64,000 nucleotides of DNA from Lysinibacillus pakistanensis (GTDB taxonomy: Bacteria > Bacillota > Bacilli > Bacillales_A > Planococcaceae), in assembly GCA_001312325.1 (NCBI GenBank), contig BBDJ01000026.1, positions 1-64,000 of the forward strand. Direction: 5' to 3'. Positions 45,589 through 53,743 of the stretch are shown here, one piece after another. A program made the translations under genes and the position numbers. The notes beneath the pieces are model-generated. The model did not search any database, was not told the origin of the DNA, and worked only from the letters and a program-made list of their open reading frames with translations. Position 1 is the stretch's first letter, and each line of letters starts with the position of its first letter.

Positions 45589-48500
45589 ATGACACTTTCT
45601 CATGAACAAAAACTACAATTTCAAAGTAAAATTGATACCGCACCATCTGCTATTCAACCAATAGCTACAGCATTGCTTCAATATATGGATACACGTGATT
45701 ATATTATTGAGCAGCAAATTGCTGATTTGAAAATCTCAACACTTGAGGAGCTATTTACAGGTCCACTAATTGATGTACTAACACTCTTTTCTTCACAGGA
45801 ACGAGCACAAAATATTAAGAAGCTGGCATTACGTTATGATACAGCAATGTTTCAGACTGGTATTTTGCGTAGATCGTTTCGTTCCGCTCAACCAGTACAG
45901 GATCACCTTTTTCAATGTCTGCAATTAATTGAAGAAATGCTAACATTTGAAGAAATCAATTTACAGGAATTATTGACGAACCACGATCAATATGAGCATG
46001 GTACATATCCTAACTATAGCTCCTATGTGATGAAGCAAGAGAATATAAAGGTAATGCCATTTAATGTTTTTGAGCAATTGCTTGCTGAGGAGCTATCATT
46101 ACAAAACCCAGCTATTGAGGAAGCTATTGAAAATATCCTATTTGATGAACATCAAAGTAGCTTTTTTTGGCTATCCACTAATACGAGGGATTTTTAAATC
46201 AACCAATAGTCGCCTGCATGAAGCACTTGGAAAGCTATTAGTTGCGGCAGCAAGGCAAGAGGGGCTACGTCAAGCTATTGTTGAGAATATCGATCATGGT
46301 ACCTTAGATGCACAGCTTACAATCATGAAGCTTATTCAAGAGCACCAGCTAACTCGCTTCTCCTCGGTTATTCGTGCTGTCGATACTTGGATGGGACTTG
46401 GCTATAATAGCTTTGAAAATCAAAAGATTACAGAGGAAGTCTTGTCATTAGCGATTCAAGCTATTGAAAACGACAATTTCACTAAGGAGTTACTGCAAAG
46501 CGAGCGAACAATAGATATTTACGTGGCACTCTGGGCAATTTCTACAAAAGATTACATGCAGCTTGATATGGTTTTGCCAGAGTTGCTAGGACGCCAAAAG
46601 CATGTCCAGCTTACAACACTTGCGTTCTTAAAAAAATTTAGGAAAAACTTCCTTTACTGCACAATATGTCAAAGATATTATTTTAACAACAAAGGATATT
46701 GAGCTCTTTACTTTTGCTTGGGGGAATTTCCTCCATGTAAATAACTATATTAACAGTGAATATGCTAGGGATAACGATTGGTCTAAAGATTTACAAACGT
46801 ACATGCAAGAAAATACACAGCTTCAAAATATTGAATATCCGCTATTTAATCAGCTCGAATGGGCAAAGAGTGAGGTTTCAAAGGATGGTCTAACAATTGC
46901 AGGAAAACCCCTATCCTTCGTATATGCGCACATATCTTTAGAGGACATTATTTCAACACAAATTATTTTGGCCCATCATTTACAGGATGAAGAATTATTT
47001 CAACGTATTATTGCGAATGCGGATGCCTACTCACCTACTAGCAGAATTGGACTTCTTAATATTTATTGCCTTGATAATTCTACACAAGGAAAGCGCGATT
47101 TTCTATTTAGCTCTTTACGAGACCGAAGCTCTATTAATCGTTCCCTCGCGCTCAAAAAGATACAGCTATTAACACCTACTGATCATGAAATTTTAAAAAT
47201 TGAGGATCTTTTAGCAAATAAATCTGGCTCACTTCGTAAAGAGGCTATTTCTCTCTTAAAGCTACAGTCACAAGAGAAAATATTGCAAAGTGCCGAGCGA
47301 CTTATACAAGACAAGAAGCAATTAAAAAGACTTGGTGGACTTGAGTTGTTATTAGAAGCCTCAAAAGAATATCACTTATCAAATGAACAAATTACAGCTT
47401 TATGCAAGACGCTACCAAAAGTTACTGCAACAGAGCAAGTGCTTTTAGATCAATTGTTAACAAGCGATATTCCAGAATATAACGAGGAAAATGGCTTTGG
47501 CTTATATACACCACACCCGCCTATTCAATACCAAAACATTTCTAATATCGATATCAAGGTAGACGGTGAAGAGGCATGGAAGCAGCTAATTCCAATTTAT
47601 TTGCAGGCACAAATGCCACTTGAGAAATTTTTTTGACTATGATGTTCATAAACTTTTAGCAAAGCTTGAGCGACTGATTCAATTAATTGATGTTCATGCT
47701 CATTATGAGTATGAGACATACCAGTGGAATGATACTCTAATGACAACAACCTTAGGACAAGACTATAACGTTATAGCCTCCAAAAAAAGAGAATAGTAAA
47801 AACGCTAGTCTTGACGTCCATCCAATACCTGAGGAAATCATACAGTGGATAAAAGAAGAAAAATTCAGCACAGAGGATTTAGCTTATTTCAACTTTTATA
47901 GTAATCTGTCTCAATACCCTGCTGTCCACGAAATTAGCGAAGCAGCACACGCTCTTATCGCTCCAATCCTTAACTATGCACAAATTAAAGAATATATTGC
48001 TAAGTTCAATGCGTTAAAGCATGAGCAAACACTGGATCGAATTTTTACTGTGCTTTCACAGGATTTAGACAATTTGTCTGGGGAGCAGGAGCTTCATAAA
48101 CAAGCAGTCGAACTTTTAGAACAACATTCACAAGGGTTCAATGTTTTCGAGCAAGCAATTGGTATAATGCTTCAGCTGCTATCTCAAATACCACCTGAAC
48201 AGTGGAAGCTCGAAGTAAGAGATAAGGGGTATTATTATTATCGTTCGACTTCCACTATAGTAGATTTAGATGTAATCGATGCCTTTGTTGATAGATGCTT
48301 CTCAGGCTATACGACGTATGGCGAATATGTCAAAATGCTCGCTATTAACGAAGAATTAACAAAGCGCATGCAAAAGGAACAGTTTAGCCCAAGTGTATTT
48401 AATTTAAGCCTATTCCAATATTTAGATGCCCTTCAAGCAGGATTATTCACACAGGATCATTTATTTGAGGCCATTTTCACGAATACATTAGCTTCTGAGG

Positions 48501-50688
48501 TATTGATAGCACCTAATAAATTAATCGAAAAGTATCAAAAGTCATTTGAAGATTTATCGACTCTTCTTGCTATACGTGAGCAGGCAATCAAGCGAATTTT
48601 AGAAATTGAGCTTAAGCGCGGCGATATTCCTACTGCCGTAACGAAGCTTGCAAGCAGTATATCCTATATAGAAGGTATTGATTATTTCTTTAAAATTTTA
48701 CAGGCACTTGATGGAGAAAAGCTTGCTCGGGGCTATATTTGGCAGGCAGAAACGAAAAAGGATGTTTTCTCACGTCTTCTTGCAAACTGCTATCCTAAAA
48801 AAAAGAGGAATCCGCACAGCAGTTAAAAGATGCATGGGAAAAAAACAGATATTTCAAAAGAGCGATTAATTGAAGCAATGATGTATAACCAGCATTGGAT
48901 CGATCTAGTTAGTGAAGTAATTGGCTGGGAAGGCTTAAAAGAATCTGCATGGTACTTTATCGCCCATACAACCGACTACTTATCGGATTTTGCTAAAGAT
49001 CAAATTGCCCTCTTCTCAAGCATCACTTCCGACGATTTCCGAGATGGGGCATTTGATTTAGGTTGGTTCCAAAGTGCCTATCAAACAATTGGTGCAAAAA
49101 AATTTCAAGCTTGTTTATGATGCCGCAAAATATGCATCAGAAGGAGCAAATCATCGTCGAGCACAGCTTTATGCCGATACTGCAATTGGAAAACTCAGTC
49201 CAAAGCCATTAATGAAAGAAATACAAGATAAACGTAATAAAGACAAGCTTCGTGCACTTGGTCTTATCCCATTAAAGAAATCAGATGAAAAGGATGCTCT
49301 AATACGTTATCAGTTTATTCAACAATTTTTAAAGGAAAGTAAGCAATTCGGAGCCCAACGTCGTGCAAGCGAAGCACGAGCAGCAAGTATTGCACTTGAA
49401 AATCTAGCACGCAATGCTGGTGATGGAGAAACAACAAGATTTACATGGCGAATGGAGCTATCCGCCTTTCATGAAATGAAACATTTATTTGAAGCACAGC
49501 AAATCGAACATATTACGGCTCATTTGCAGATTAAAGATGATGCTGATGTGGAAATTATCGTGACAAAGGATGGAAAACTTCTTAAAAATATCCCAACAAC
49601 ATTGAAGAAAAATACACAGGTTATTGCATTACAAGAGGCACGAAAAGAGTTGAAGGAGCAATATAAACGAGCACGGCCAGCGCTTGAACAGGCAATGGAG
49701 TTAGAAACAGTCTTCCATGCTGAAGAGCTCATCAATTTATTAAAGCATCCGATCCTAGCTCCTCTTCTACAAAAGCTTGTCTTTAAAAGCGATGTGTATA
49801 TAGGAATGCTCACTGCAGAGGGCATAAGGCTACTATCAGGTGACATCATTTCACTTGCACCAACGACAACATTAAAAATTGCCCATCCATATCACCTACT
49901 TGAAAGTGGTCAATGGCGTCAATGGCAGGCTTATATGTTTGAGCACAAAATAAAGCAACCGTTTAAGCAAGTGCTCCGTGAGCTATATGTGATAAATGAA
50001 GATGAAAAAGGGCAAAAAAAGATCATTCCGCTATGCAGGACACCAAGTAAATCCATCTCAAACGGTAGCCCTTTTAAAAACAAGAGGCTGGCAAATTAGT
50101 TATGATGAAGGACCTCGTAAAGTGTATTATAAGGAAAATATTGTGGCCTCGTTATATGCACAGGCAGATTGGTTTACCCCAGCAGAAATTGAAGCGCCTG
50201 CAATTGAGGGTGTTTATTTCTATAATCGTTTAACTGGCAAAAGCATAGTCTTAGATGATATTCCTGCAGCAATTTTCTCTGAGATTATGCGAGATATCGA
50301 TCTCGTTGTTAGTGTTGCGCATGTTGGTGGTGTAGATCCCGAGGCAAGTCATTCTACAGTTGAAATGCGTAGTGTGATTGTGGAAGAATTAACAAAGCTA
50401 TTAAAACTTACAAACGTAGAAGTGAAAAAACAGCATGCTCTTATTGAAGGTAAACTTGCTAGCTATTCACTACATTTAGGTAGTGGTGTTGTCCATCAAA
50501 TGGGTGGATCAATGATTCCAATAATCGCTGTACAAGCGCAGCATCGTGGACGTATTTTCCTACCAATGGTGGATGATGACCCTCGTACAGCCGAAATCAT
50601 GTCGAAGCTATTACTACTAAGTGAAGATACTAAAATTAAGGATCCTGCCATTTTAGGGCATATCCGTAGCTATGAACAACAGCGTTAA
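45589..50688 (+). CDS. Giant DUF4132-family protein (YehI/MolR-like), eight frameshifts
   Basis: About 1,696 residues when eight runs are corrected (near 46170, 46633, 47632, 47770, 48800 by two bases, 48841, 49100, 50018). Mostly helical and probably HEAT-like over the first 1,200 residues. The C-terminus has the family core: MELSAFHEMKHLFEAQQIEH, AHPYHLLESGQW, KQPFKQVLRELYV, RYAGHQVNPSQ, VVSVAHVGGVDPEASHSTVE, LGSGVVHQMGG and QHRGRIFLPMVDDDP. These match the DUF4132 family (E. coli YehI, MolR) as I know it; biochemical function is unknown. No signal peptide. Start ATG 45589 after AAGGAGGA. Confidence 0.85.
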
Positions 50689-50716: not shown

Positions 50717-50752
50717 TTAAAGTGCCCTCCTTGAACATTGGAGGCACTTTTA
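50717..50752. terminator. Bidirectional terminator between convergent DUF4132 and TOPRIM genes
   Basis: AAAGTGCCCTCC (50719-50730) / GGAGGCACTTT (50740-50750) with one bulged C; T runs on both sides. It directly abuts the corrected TOPRIM stop. Confidence 0.8.
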
Positions 50753-51484
50753 TTGTACATCAGATTTTATCATTTCAAATAACAACGGGACATTGGTTCC
50801 TCTTTGCAATGAATGACAGCCATCCATTAAAAATGCCCAGCTTTTTTTTCATTTTTTTCTCTATATGGCAGCTCTTGACTAACTGGTAGAAATCCCCTTA
50901 AATACTCCTCAATAGTACCGGTGAGATTTTCCATAAAATCATCCGCCTTATGCACTTTTTCTGTTGGAATTTCATTGCGCTCATTCCATAGTACATGTTC
51001 TAAGTTCGTAGAAAAATAAAATAGTTGATAGGGTACTTTTAAACGGTTAATGCTGAAGTGGTCATTCGCCACTAAGATCCTAGCATTATTCGCTTTCATT
51101 TCATTACGTTGCTCAATTTGCTCTTTGCGTTTATCCGAATTCACTAAGATTGCATCCTCCGTATAAAACAAATTTTGCTCGATATCCTCCTTCACCTTAA
51201 CAAATTCTGGTGCAATAAAGCAGCCATCTGCATCTGTGATATGAACAACAGCCGTTAAATCCTTTGCTAAAAATTTATATTTATTTAAATAGCCCTGGAT
51301 TACTTTAACAACACTATTTTTGATATTTGGGATACGCTTATTGGCATCCCATTTTGTCAAAATATCCTCACGCTGAACGTCAAAGCGAATCATTGAGTTT
51401 GCAAAGTATTCATCTAAATAATCCTCTAAGATAATCTGCTCTGTCTGTCCCTCAACAATAATTAGGAGAATTTTTTTTAGTCAT
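50750..51484 (-). CDS. TOPRIM-like (RloB/OLD-type) protein of a two-gene system, three frameshifts
   Basis: Corrected start MTKKILLIIVEGQTEQIILE at ATG 51484: VEGQTE is the TOPRIM/OLD acidic motif 1, and VVHITDADGCFI near residue 90 supplies the DxD motif. Two runs near the C-terminus (about 50850 and 50841) should be one shorter, replacing the literal end by ..SLQRGTNVPLLFEMIKSDVQ with its stop at 50750 beside the terminator; 243 residues. The ATG overlaps the ATPase stop by 8 bp. ATPase + TOPRIM pairs include AbiL, PARIS (AriA-AriB) and OLD-like defence modules; nuclease activity is inferred. Confidence 0.78.
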
Positions 51485-52815
51485 GCTGCACACCTGCTTT
51501 TCTAAATGCACGCTTCATTTTAAATGATTTTGTTTCCTTATAAACTTCCTCATCCTGACCACCAAGCTGGATAGCACGTAGGTAAACATCCCTAGCATTA
51601 TTTACTTCCTTTATTCCTTTTAGCTGTATATAGCGGTGATCTTCATTTGTTGTTGTAAACCATAAATTTTTAATGGCTAGCACCTCTAACACACGTAAAT
51701 TATGAGATGTAAAGATAAGCTGACCTTTTCCATCCTCATCTATCACTGTTAACAACTCACCTAACAAATATTCAAAAACACCAGAATCTAATTCATCAAT
51801 AACGACACATGCATTAGGATTGTTGTATACCGCAATAAGCAAGCTAAGGACAGAAATAATTTTTAATATCCCCTCTGACTCCGTACGAAGCGGTAATTCA
51901 CGTTTTCCCCGCTTGGATAAAAATTCAAAACGAACCCCTTTTGCCCCACTATCCATCATTTGTTTCGTAATAACATTAATTTTTATGGTCAGACCTGGGA
52001 TCATTGCTGACAATACTTGATTACTTTGTTCGACAACCTCACATAACACATAGAAGGTCTCTTCTGGCAATACTGCTGGTCCCTTTAAATCATATGGTAT
52101 TAAACCTCTAGTTCTCTCTAAATGGATACTAAAGGGCATGATTCGCTCCTCAAACAATGGTGCGATATTTTGATTATTGATAACATGAAAATCTTGAGTA
52201 AAATCAATCGCTATATTTTGAAGAAGCTCCATCTCCAGCTCCGAAAGCTGTTCTTGTAATAGAGGCTTTAAATCTTTATGGAAAATAAATGACATATATT
52301 GTCTTCTAGCTAATTGCTGTACAACTAGCAATTGAATACGTGCTTGTTCATTCAAATCAGTCAGTTTAGCATTACGTAGCTGCACATCATCATCTGTAAC
52401 AGCAATTAGTATCTTCGTACGTTTACCCTTGTCATTTTCCCGATACGTAAGTCGTTCATGAACTGTGTATAGTCGATACTCATCCTCTTTTAGCTCTACA
52501 TAATAATTGACAAAAAAATGTACCAAACTGATTTTCCACAAGAAACTCAAAATCTATGCTAGCCTTACCCTCTCCTGCCATCACTAAGTGTTTTTCTTGT
52601 ACAGGTAATTTCACCTCTGCTATCCAGCCTGAAATTAGTGCTTTCAATATACTGAAGGCATCGACAATCGTTGTTTTACCTGAACCATTCTGTCCATATA
52701 AGCCTACAACATTGGCCTGTAAAAATGACTCGAAATTTACTGCAATGGAAATCTCACCGTGACGAACATTTCGTAAATTATGCAATATTATTTTCTTAAT
52801 CTTGATAATTGCCAT
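51477..52815 (-). CDS. AAA/ABC-type ATPase (AAA_15/RloA-like) of a two-gene system, one frameshift
   Basis: SMC/ABC-like ATPase of 445 residues. Walker A GLYGQNGSGKTTIVDAFS near residue 38; signature-like LRTESEGILKIISVL near 315; Walker B CVVIDELDSGVFEYLL near 340; H-loop/switch TSHNLRVLE near 375. The region between is a helical lid rather than a long coiled coil. A T7 near 52516 should be T6. Start ATG 52815. It overlaps the TOPRIM-like gene. Such overcoming-lysogenization-type pairs usually sense phage and abort infection; here that is inference. Confidence 0.82.
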
Positions 52816-52948
52816 TATGCAAACACCCTTTTTTTTCTTATTATAATGAAAATCAGTATATTTTATAACAATTTCAATTTTAAGTATACTCGTCTAAAAA
52901 CTAGTGGAATTTTGAATATAGGCATAAAAATAAAGAAGGTGTGTTTCA

Positions 52949-53174
52949 TTGGCATATGTTACTCCCGACAATTTTAATCAACAATTTTATTCTGGTATAA
53001 AAGAATTTGGGTACTCTCTACTGGCACTAATCAAGGCAATAACAGATTTTTGAATCAGAAGGAAGAACTGATGATGAAATCCTGTTAAATATAGGGACAG
53101 TAGAGGTCAATCAAATAAGGGACAGCCTCTATCCCCTCCTCAGCTACATAATAGCCGGGGCTTACCAGGAATAG
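52949..53174 (+). CDS. Small hypothetical protein, one frameshift
   Basis: From TTG 52949 (AAGAAGGTG before it) the reading LAYVTPDNFNQQFYSGIKEF continues to ...LALIKAITDF; shortening the T5 near 53045 to T4 leads on to ESEGRTDDEILLNIGTVEVN and ends YIIAGAYQE at 53174, 74 residues. Coding-like composition on both sides of the break supports it. No function recognised; it is divergent from the ATPase/TOPRIM pair. A hairpin terminator follows. Confidence 0.5.
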
Positions 53175-53743
53175 TGTCTGGCATTTTAGGGAACTCAAGA
53201 TCCAATAAAAATGCTTTCTACTAGTTCGTTTTAAACTAATGGAAAGCGTTTTATAAAAATAGGCTATATGCTTCACCTATTTCTATCATAATAATATTTG
53301 TAATTGAAAAGACCCAATTTAAAAAATAAAAGATGTTTTTCACCTATAATTTAATTCTTAAAATCAACTTCATGAATGTTACTTCTTATAATTAAATATT
53401 TAAAAATTAATAAAATTTTATAAAAATATCAACACGAAACAGTTATTCTTGTACTATTATACCTGTTTTCAAAATTTTATTTTAAAGATCATAAGTCGAA
53501 ATAGTAAGTTTTTTTGGGTTGTGAATCATTTTTTTTGGCAGTATAGTTGTTTAATGTCAGGGGATGTTTGGATTATTTTCCATTCATAAATATTTTAATA
53601 AAAAGGTATACATATCTTCCACGAAAATTACATCAGGACTGCCAAATGTAATGTTCTCTACTATTTACTTTTGACCATCTCAGCTGTGAATGTCTATTTT
53701 TTTACTTAAAATATGTTTTGTATATAATTATAGGAGGAAGAAC
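53175..53743. other. AT-rich intergenic region
   Basis: About 570 bp. It contains a hairpin terminator at 53207-53257 and the leader of the chemoreceptor gene (AGGAGGAAG at 53731). The rest is very AT-rich with no supportable gene or RNA. Confidence 0.6.
53207..53257 (+). terminator. Terminator after the small hypothetical gene
   Basis: AATGCTTTC (53210-53218) / GGAAAGCGTT (53241-53250) with inner CTAGTT/AACTAAT pairing, then TTATAAAA. Confidence 0.6.

Follow-up and report, generated by a model that had tools for sequence, protein, structure and literature searches.

The 64,000-nucleotide stretch analyzed here (contig BBDJ01000026.1 of the Lysinibacillus pakistanensis assembly GCA_001312325.1, forward strand, positions 1 to 64,000; hereafter, the window) carries on its minus strand two overlapping genes, one for an ABC-type ATPase and one for a small TOPRIM nuclease-like partner. 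ATPase-TOPRIM pairs are known mainly as defence cargo that is gained and lost. We found that each of the two genes is present exactly once in all 32 Lysinibacillus genomes examined and that the Lysinibacillus branch is a vertically inherited chromosomal resident; this core status is the unusual point of the pair, which stands as a distinct member among ATPase-TOPRIM systems. The family as a whole is wider and more mobile than the resident branch, which raises the question whether a defence module that was once mobile has become resident here.

The gene pair and its locus in Lysinibacillus

Sequence, structure models and conserved residues support reading the pair as an ATPase and a TOPRIM protein. 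The ATPase is of the Rad50/OLD type, and its residues in Walker A, Walker B and the H-loop are intact. The observation made in the first-pass annotation for 50750-52815 was confirmed: GQNGSGKTT (Walker A) and VVIDELDSG (Walker B) are read in two overlapping minus-strand frames, 52480-52815 and 51477-52550, respectively, and the partner frame, open on the minus strand from at least 51480 down to 50827, encodes VEGQTE and a DxD motif, DAD. In alignment A1, built from 60 of the 77 listed TOPRIM homologues plus the query, the metal ligands E-x3-[D/E] and DxD, as named for OLD-type TOPRIM domains in PMC7049728, are present: E11, D84 and D86 are invariant (61/61), and E15 occurs in at least 90% of the sequences. 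Alignment A2 was built from the query, 23 loci and 8 of 120 listed homologues. In structure, the partner model came closest to the TOPRIM part of the Thermus scotoductus OLD protein. A Foldseek search with the TOPRIM model gave no useful lead; its list included the PARIS chain 8ux9_A (E value of 0.057, TM of 0.18). Families absent from these structure lists may still be related. Against the sequences of solved structures, the TOPRIM profile gave three matches, the best with an E value of only 0.097, and the ATPase gave a single one, to an SMC protein (2.4e-4); the viral structure library yielded one match at an E value of ≤0.001 (TM of 0.25). The TOPRIM family lies below every Pfam and NCBIfam cut-off and its PADLOC matches are weak, and surveys based on these models may overlook it. 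A literature search, with most subscription papers outside its reach, found no publication on this gene pair.

The partner frame in the window is broken just behind its start and again close to its end, and its 243-residue length, given in the first-pass annotation, is readable not in the window but in the intact copy of G001 (locus L001), the nearest genome, which has 75% of sampled 31-mers in common with the window. Both genes are intact in G001, with 97% (ATPase) and 98% (partner) identity to the window frames, which rules out chance open reading frames. Comparison of the window with G001 revealed 40 frame-changing indels across approximately 20 kb, 33 of them, as a raw count, close to a homopolymer run of 4 or longer; five fall within 50750-52830, four of these inside the two genes. 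The annotated view that indels hide the C-terminus of the partner held. Because frame-changing indels occur all along the aligned 20 kb of the contig, decay specific to the pair was rejected, and the breaks resemble errors of the consensus sequence that are scattered along the contig. The 8-bp overlap noted in the annotation is read in the window, between the ATPase stop codon at 51477-51479 and the partner ATG at 51482-51484. The two genes adjoin in all 32 genus copies, with the same overlap in 31 and a distance of one base in the remaining one.

The surroundings are common to 31 of the 32 loci, a shared neighbourhood being defined as at least 3 of 18 neighbour clusters in the 20 kb around the pair (15 kb for G003); the exception, G013, has none of the 18. 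In 29 genomes (G013 was dropped, and G010 and G029 lacked an rpoB locus), pairwise distances tracked those of rpoB, with Mantel r values of 0.90 for TOPRIM and 0.92 for the ATPase, and none of 2000 permutations reached values as high. The median ratio of nonsynonymous to synonymous substitutions (dN/dS) was 0.073 for both genes, compared with 0.016 for rpoB and 0.046-0.219 for seven neighbour clusters; only genome pairs with a dS of 0.05-1.2 were used (91 for TOPRIM, 93 for the ATPase and 402 for rpoB). The contrast gene hsdR exceeded its cut-off in only 7 of the same 32 genomes (12 at an E value of ≤0.001). A GajA control matched all 32 genomes at an E value of ≤0.001 and 10 of them better than 1e-8, a cut set after viewing the list; its signal throughout the genus comes from matches to short fragments, P-loops among them. 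The contrast therefore leans on hsdR alone.

Pfam recognized 16 of 20 scanned neighbour representatives (4 had no match): a chemotaxis receptor, an adenylation/reductase enzyme and phosphopantetheinyl transferase, periplasmic-binding and ABC transport genes, a LysM-GH18 glycosidase, a sigma factor, a DUF5724/DUF4132/DUF7737 giant, MarR, nitroreductase and chaperonin-type genes. For 10 of these 20 proteins, PADLOC gave no family match at an E value of ≤0.001. On the ordinary Pfam neighbours and the absence of PADLOC matches among the 10 proteins so scanned, a defence island was rejected.

Mobile relatives and distribution beyond the genus

Relatives of the partner, each beside an ATPase gene, were found in three of 72,556 plasmid records and in one of 50,697 phage records. 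The partner on the Lysinibacillus capsici plasmid pFN9A is 46% identical to the query; the pair lies near conjugal-transfer genes, yet the plasmid is typed as non-mobilizable. The relatives on a Paenibacillus plasmid and a Ruminococcus plasmid, the latter with an integrase nearby, show 29% and 28% identity, respectively, and that of the Clostridioides phage pCD1602_4 (pair at L162:6608-8678, in an unannotated record) shows 28.5%. The genes overlap by 8 bp in L. capsici, Ruminococcus and the phage and by 11 bp in Paenibacillus. A scan of viral contigs with short exact patterns gave 162 pattern stretches and no relatives. Of the marks of a mobile defence module, carriage on plasmids or phages is found in the relatives, whereas patchiness and variable location are not found in Lysinibacillus; beyond this genus, the family is patchy across Bacillota. 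As a separate observation, the pFN9A pair (L161:7650-9720) adjoins VWA, AAA and S16 protease genes and is located upstream of the conjugal-transfer genes.

Within the family, the TOPRIM profile matched 56 of 261 genomes, namely the 32 of Lysinibacillus and 24 of the other 229, leaving 205 without a match. Two small genera are complete for the pair (5/5 and 3/3), and in the former it has a kept neighbourhood of its own, unlike that of Lysinibacillus. A Sporosarcina-like genus carries the pair in 10 of 68 genomes, one copy being broken by stops. A draw across the class was positive in 12 of 398 genomes, 5 of them Lysinibacillus. In the ATPase tree (54 rows), 31 Lysinibacillus copies group together with support of 99/92. 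A pair found in every Lysinibacillus genome examined and having mobile relatives, one of them on a Lysinibacillus plasmid, allows a direct test of whether and how a defence module turns resident.

Proposed function and its alternatives

The first-pass annotation had proposed an antiphage-type module. This interpretation was partly supported. The ATPase and TOPRIM identities stood, and a defence-type ancestry is supported by AbiLi-like ATPase scores and by pairs of the same layout on three plasmids and one phage; the locus itself, however, is core, and no defence island was recognized among the neighbours scanned. We infer a bicistronic sensor-effector module, resident in Lysinibacillus and probably still immune there, in which the ATPase would hold a TOPRIM nuclease inactive until a trigger arrives, and we consider the chances of this model evenly balanced. 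The ATPase would oligomerise, bind the nuclease and keep it inactive. A trigger, which may be a phage, other invading DNA or damage, would free or activate the nuclease, predicted to be stand-alone and to use OLD-like two-metal residues. The freed enzyme would then cut nucleic acid, and phage growth or the cell itself would stop. That the ATPase restrains the nuclease and senses the trigger appears most likely by analogy with two kinds of pairs: in PARIS, AriB is sequestered by an AriA hexamer and set free by a phage protein (PMC12409363), and AAA ATPase antitoxins paired with TOPRIM_OLD toxins are reported in PMC10440598. The resident locus favours a standing function, and the mobile relatives and patchy sister genera favour immunity. 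Whether the Lysinibacillus branch has an immune or a cellular role is beyond what sequence decides, with immunity as the leading reading.

Several observations weigh against a resident pair that has remained immune. Conservation as core genes outside defence islands had been named in the first-pass annotation as the outcome that would speak against defence, and this is what the locus presents, with the pair in 32/32 genomes, the neighbourhood in 31/32 and no PADLOC match at an E value of ≤0.001 among the ten neighbours scanned. Residence itself is not uniform: the occurrence of individual neighbour clusters ranges from 7 to 28 loci out of 32, and the gene order around the pair deviates in G010. 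The G013 pair belongs to another lineage, grouping with those of two other genera, g37 and g42 (100/99), and occupies another genomic place, and the g42 copies fall in two parts of the ATPase tree; horizontal exchange of the module therefore goes on. Of the family genomes outside Lysinibacillus that matched the TOPRIM profile, two (G077 and G201) did so in fragments.

The strongest alternative is that the pair has been taken over for a task in chromosome maintenance, the cell cycle or sporulation and no longer serves immunity in Lysinibacillus. Its presence in every genome of the genus, the shared neighbourhood, the distances that track rpoB, the dN/dS values inside the neighbour range, the conserved blocks upstream of the pair and the completeness of the two small genera all agree with such a role. 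A precedent is Cran1, a class 5 OLD protein of Sulfolobales recruited for the cell cycle, which, according to PMC12796447, is an OLD-type ATPase/TOPRIM protein likewise inherited vertically in its lineage and did not show antiviral activity in the assays performed; unlike the bacterial two-gene pair with its mobile relatives, Cran1 is a single archaeal protein with both domains. The relatives on plasmids and a phage, the scattered copies in the Sporosarcina-like genus with one broken by stops, and the G013 lineage, which indicates that the module still moves, argue against a housekeeping role, and the 205 family genomes without the pair fit poorly with an indispensable function. We regard this alternative as a serious possibility but a rather unlikely one.

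We would advance more tentatively still that a mobile anti-phage module was domesticated in an ancestor of Lysinibacillus and became a lasting regulator of the cell or guardian of its genome, the bacterial counterpart of Cran1. If so, a TOPRIM family weakly recognized by PADLOC and missed by Pfam and NCBIfam would have a resident cellular role.

Relation to known systems and features of the locus

The first-pass annotation had suggested kinship with AbiL, PARIS and OLD/Gabija and a search against defence-system models. The ATPase proved AbiLi-like and matched AbiLi, AriA-labelled and HEC-01A models, whereas the partner gave no AbiLii or AriB match at an E value of ≤10 and only a weak one to HEC-01B, and the definitions of AbiL, OLD and Gabija do not fit the pair. 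AbiL (AbiLi/AbiLii) and RloA/RloB share with it the two-gene arrangement of an ATPase and a small TOPRIM-type partner, and the ATPases are clearly homologous (E value of 2.5e-27 against the AbiLi model PDLC02335; profile-profile match of 99.1%). The TOPRIM partners, in contrast, have only the first motif region in common: an AbiLii match at an E value of ≤0.01 was obtained for 8 of 61 partner family members (best, 3.4e-4), and a profile comparison with 9 AbiLii-type proteins aligned only 40 columns, at 64%. Moreover, the G001 chromosome encodes, at another site, an AbiL-type pair that scores far better (AbiLi, 3e-76; AbiLii, 1.5e-25). AbiL membership was rejected on these grounds, and it is improbable that the pair is a diverged member of AbiL/RloAB.

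Among the 398 genomes of the class draw, 14 matched AbiLii models, including all 5 Lysinibacillus genomes; the proteins used in the two profile comparisons came from these loci. Four Lysinibacillus genomes (L170, L172, L173 and L174) possess a second ATPase-TOPRIM pair of the AbiL/RloAB type with closely alike partners; AbiL-type scoring was done on L170 (G001:C1, approximately 949-951 kb), whose pair may be core too. The same ABC-transporter gene follows the pair in L170 and L174, and none does so in L172 and L173 within the 1.5 kb examined. The AbiL-type pair of G013 (L168) is a different one, its partner being 27% identical.

PARIS likewise consists of a separate ABC ATPase and a TOPRIM effector, and the AriA-labelled matches extend this likeness; the partner gave no AriB-labelled match at an E value of ≤10 and had the PARIS chain 8ux9_A in its Foldseek list, and kinship with PARIS may go either way. 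The pair studied here is a core chromosomal locus. OLD proteins of classes 1 and 2 also combine an ATPase head with a TOPRIM fold, the latter being predicted for the partner here, but in one polypeptide, whereas two genes are present in all 32 copies here. The same architecture is found in GajA of Gabija, but no counterpart of the UvrD-like GajB was found here: the Pfam scan of 20 neighbour representatives recognized no helicase. The PADLOC candidates HEC-01A and HEC-01B match the ATPase (E value of 1.2e-17) and the partner (9.5e-5), and the HEC-01B model PDLC04188 is matched by 26 of 61 partners at an E value of ≤0.01; these are candidate models only, and the match of the query partner is limited to residues 4-36. 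The label HEC-01 was not found in the PADLOC server paper. That the two genes form an addiction toxin-antitoxin pair, persisting by post-segregational killing with no gain to the host, is very improbable: the AAA antitoxins of TOPRIM_OLD toxins reported in PMC10440598 and the copy on a plasmid of the same genus are in its favour, but chromosomal persistence and purifying selection on both genes suggest a host benefit.

Table 1. Features of the gene pair, in coordinates of the window
Feature	Position	Strand	Description
ABC-type ATPase gene	51477..52815	-	445 amino acids in the intact G001 copy; in the window split into frames 52480-52815 and 51477-52550
TOPRIM nuclease-like gene	50750..51484	-	243 amino acids in the intact G001 copy; start and stop codons assigned by comparison with G001
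Gene overlap, 8 bp	51477..51484	-	read in the window sequence and in G001 (L001)
Putative promoter of the pair	52840..52880	-	blocks conserved across 31 aligned Lysinibacillus copies: TTGTTATAAAAT-like block and TATAAT-like element
Putative terminator	50720..50749	.	inverted repeat in the gap where the pair and the DUF7737-ending gene converge; by eye, also in G001

A consensus promoter scan did not report the block pair upstream of the ATPase gene, and promoter-like sites were no commoner than in shuffles; the inverted repeat, seen by eye, was not reported by the scan either. Control by a DinR-type box was rejected, the 220 bp upstream of the pair in the 32 loci containing no match to the consensus. 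In 25 of the 32 genus loci, a small proline-rich gene, coat-like by eye, separates the chemotaxis receptor gene from the ATPase gene and lies on the strand opposite to the latter; none was found in the window, where the region is 52968-53690, or in G001. The giant DUF5724/DUF4132/DUF7737 gene at 46803-50688, convergent with the pair, is frame-broken in the window and encodes 1702 amino acids in G001.
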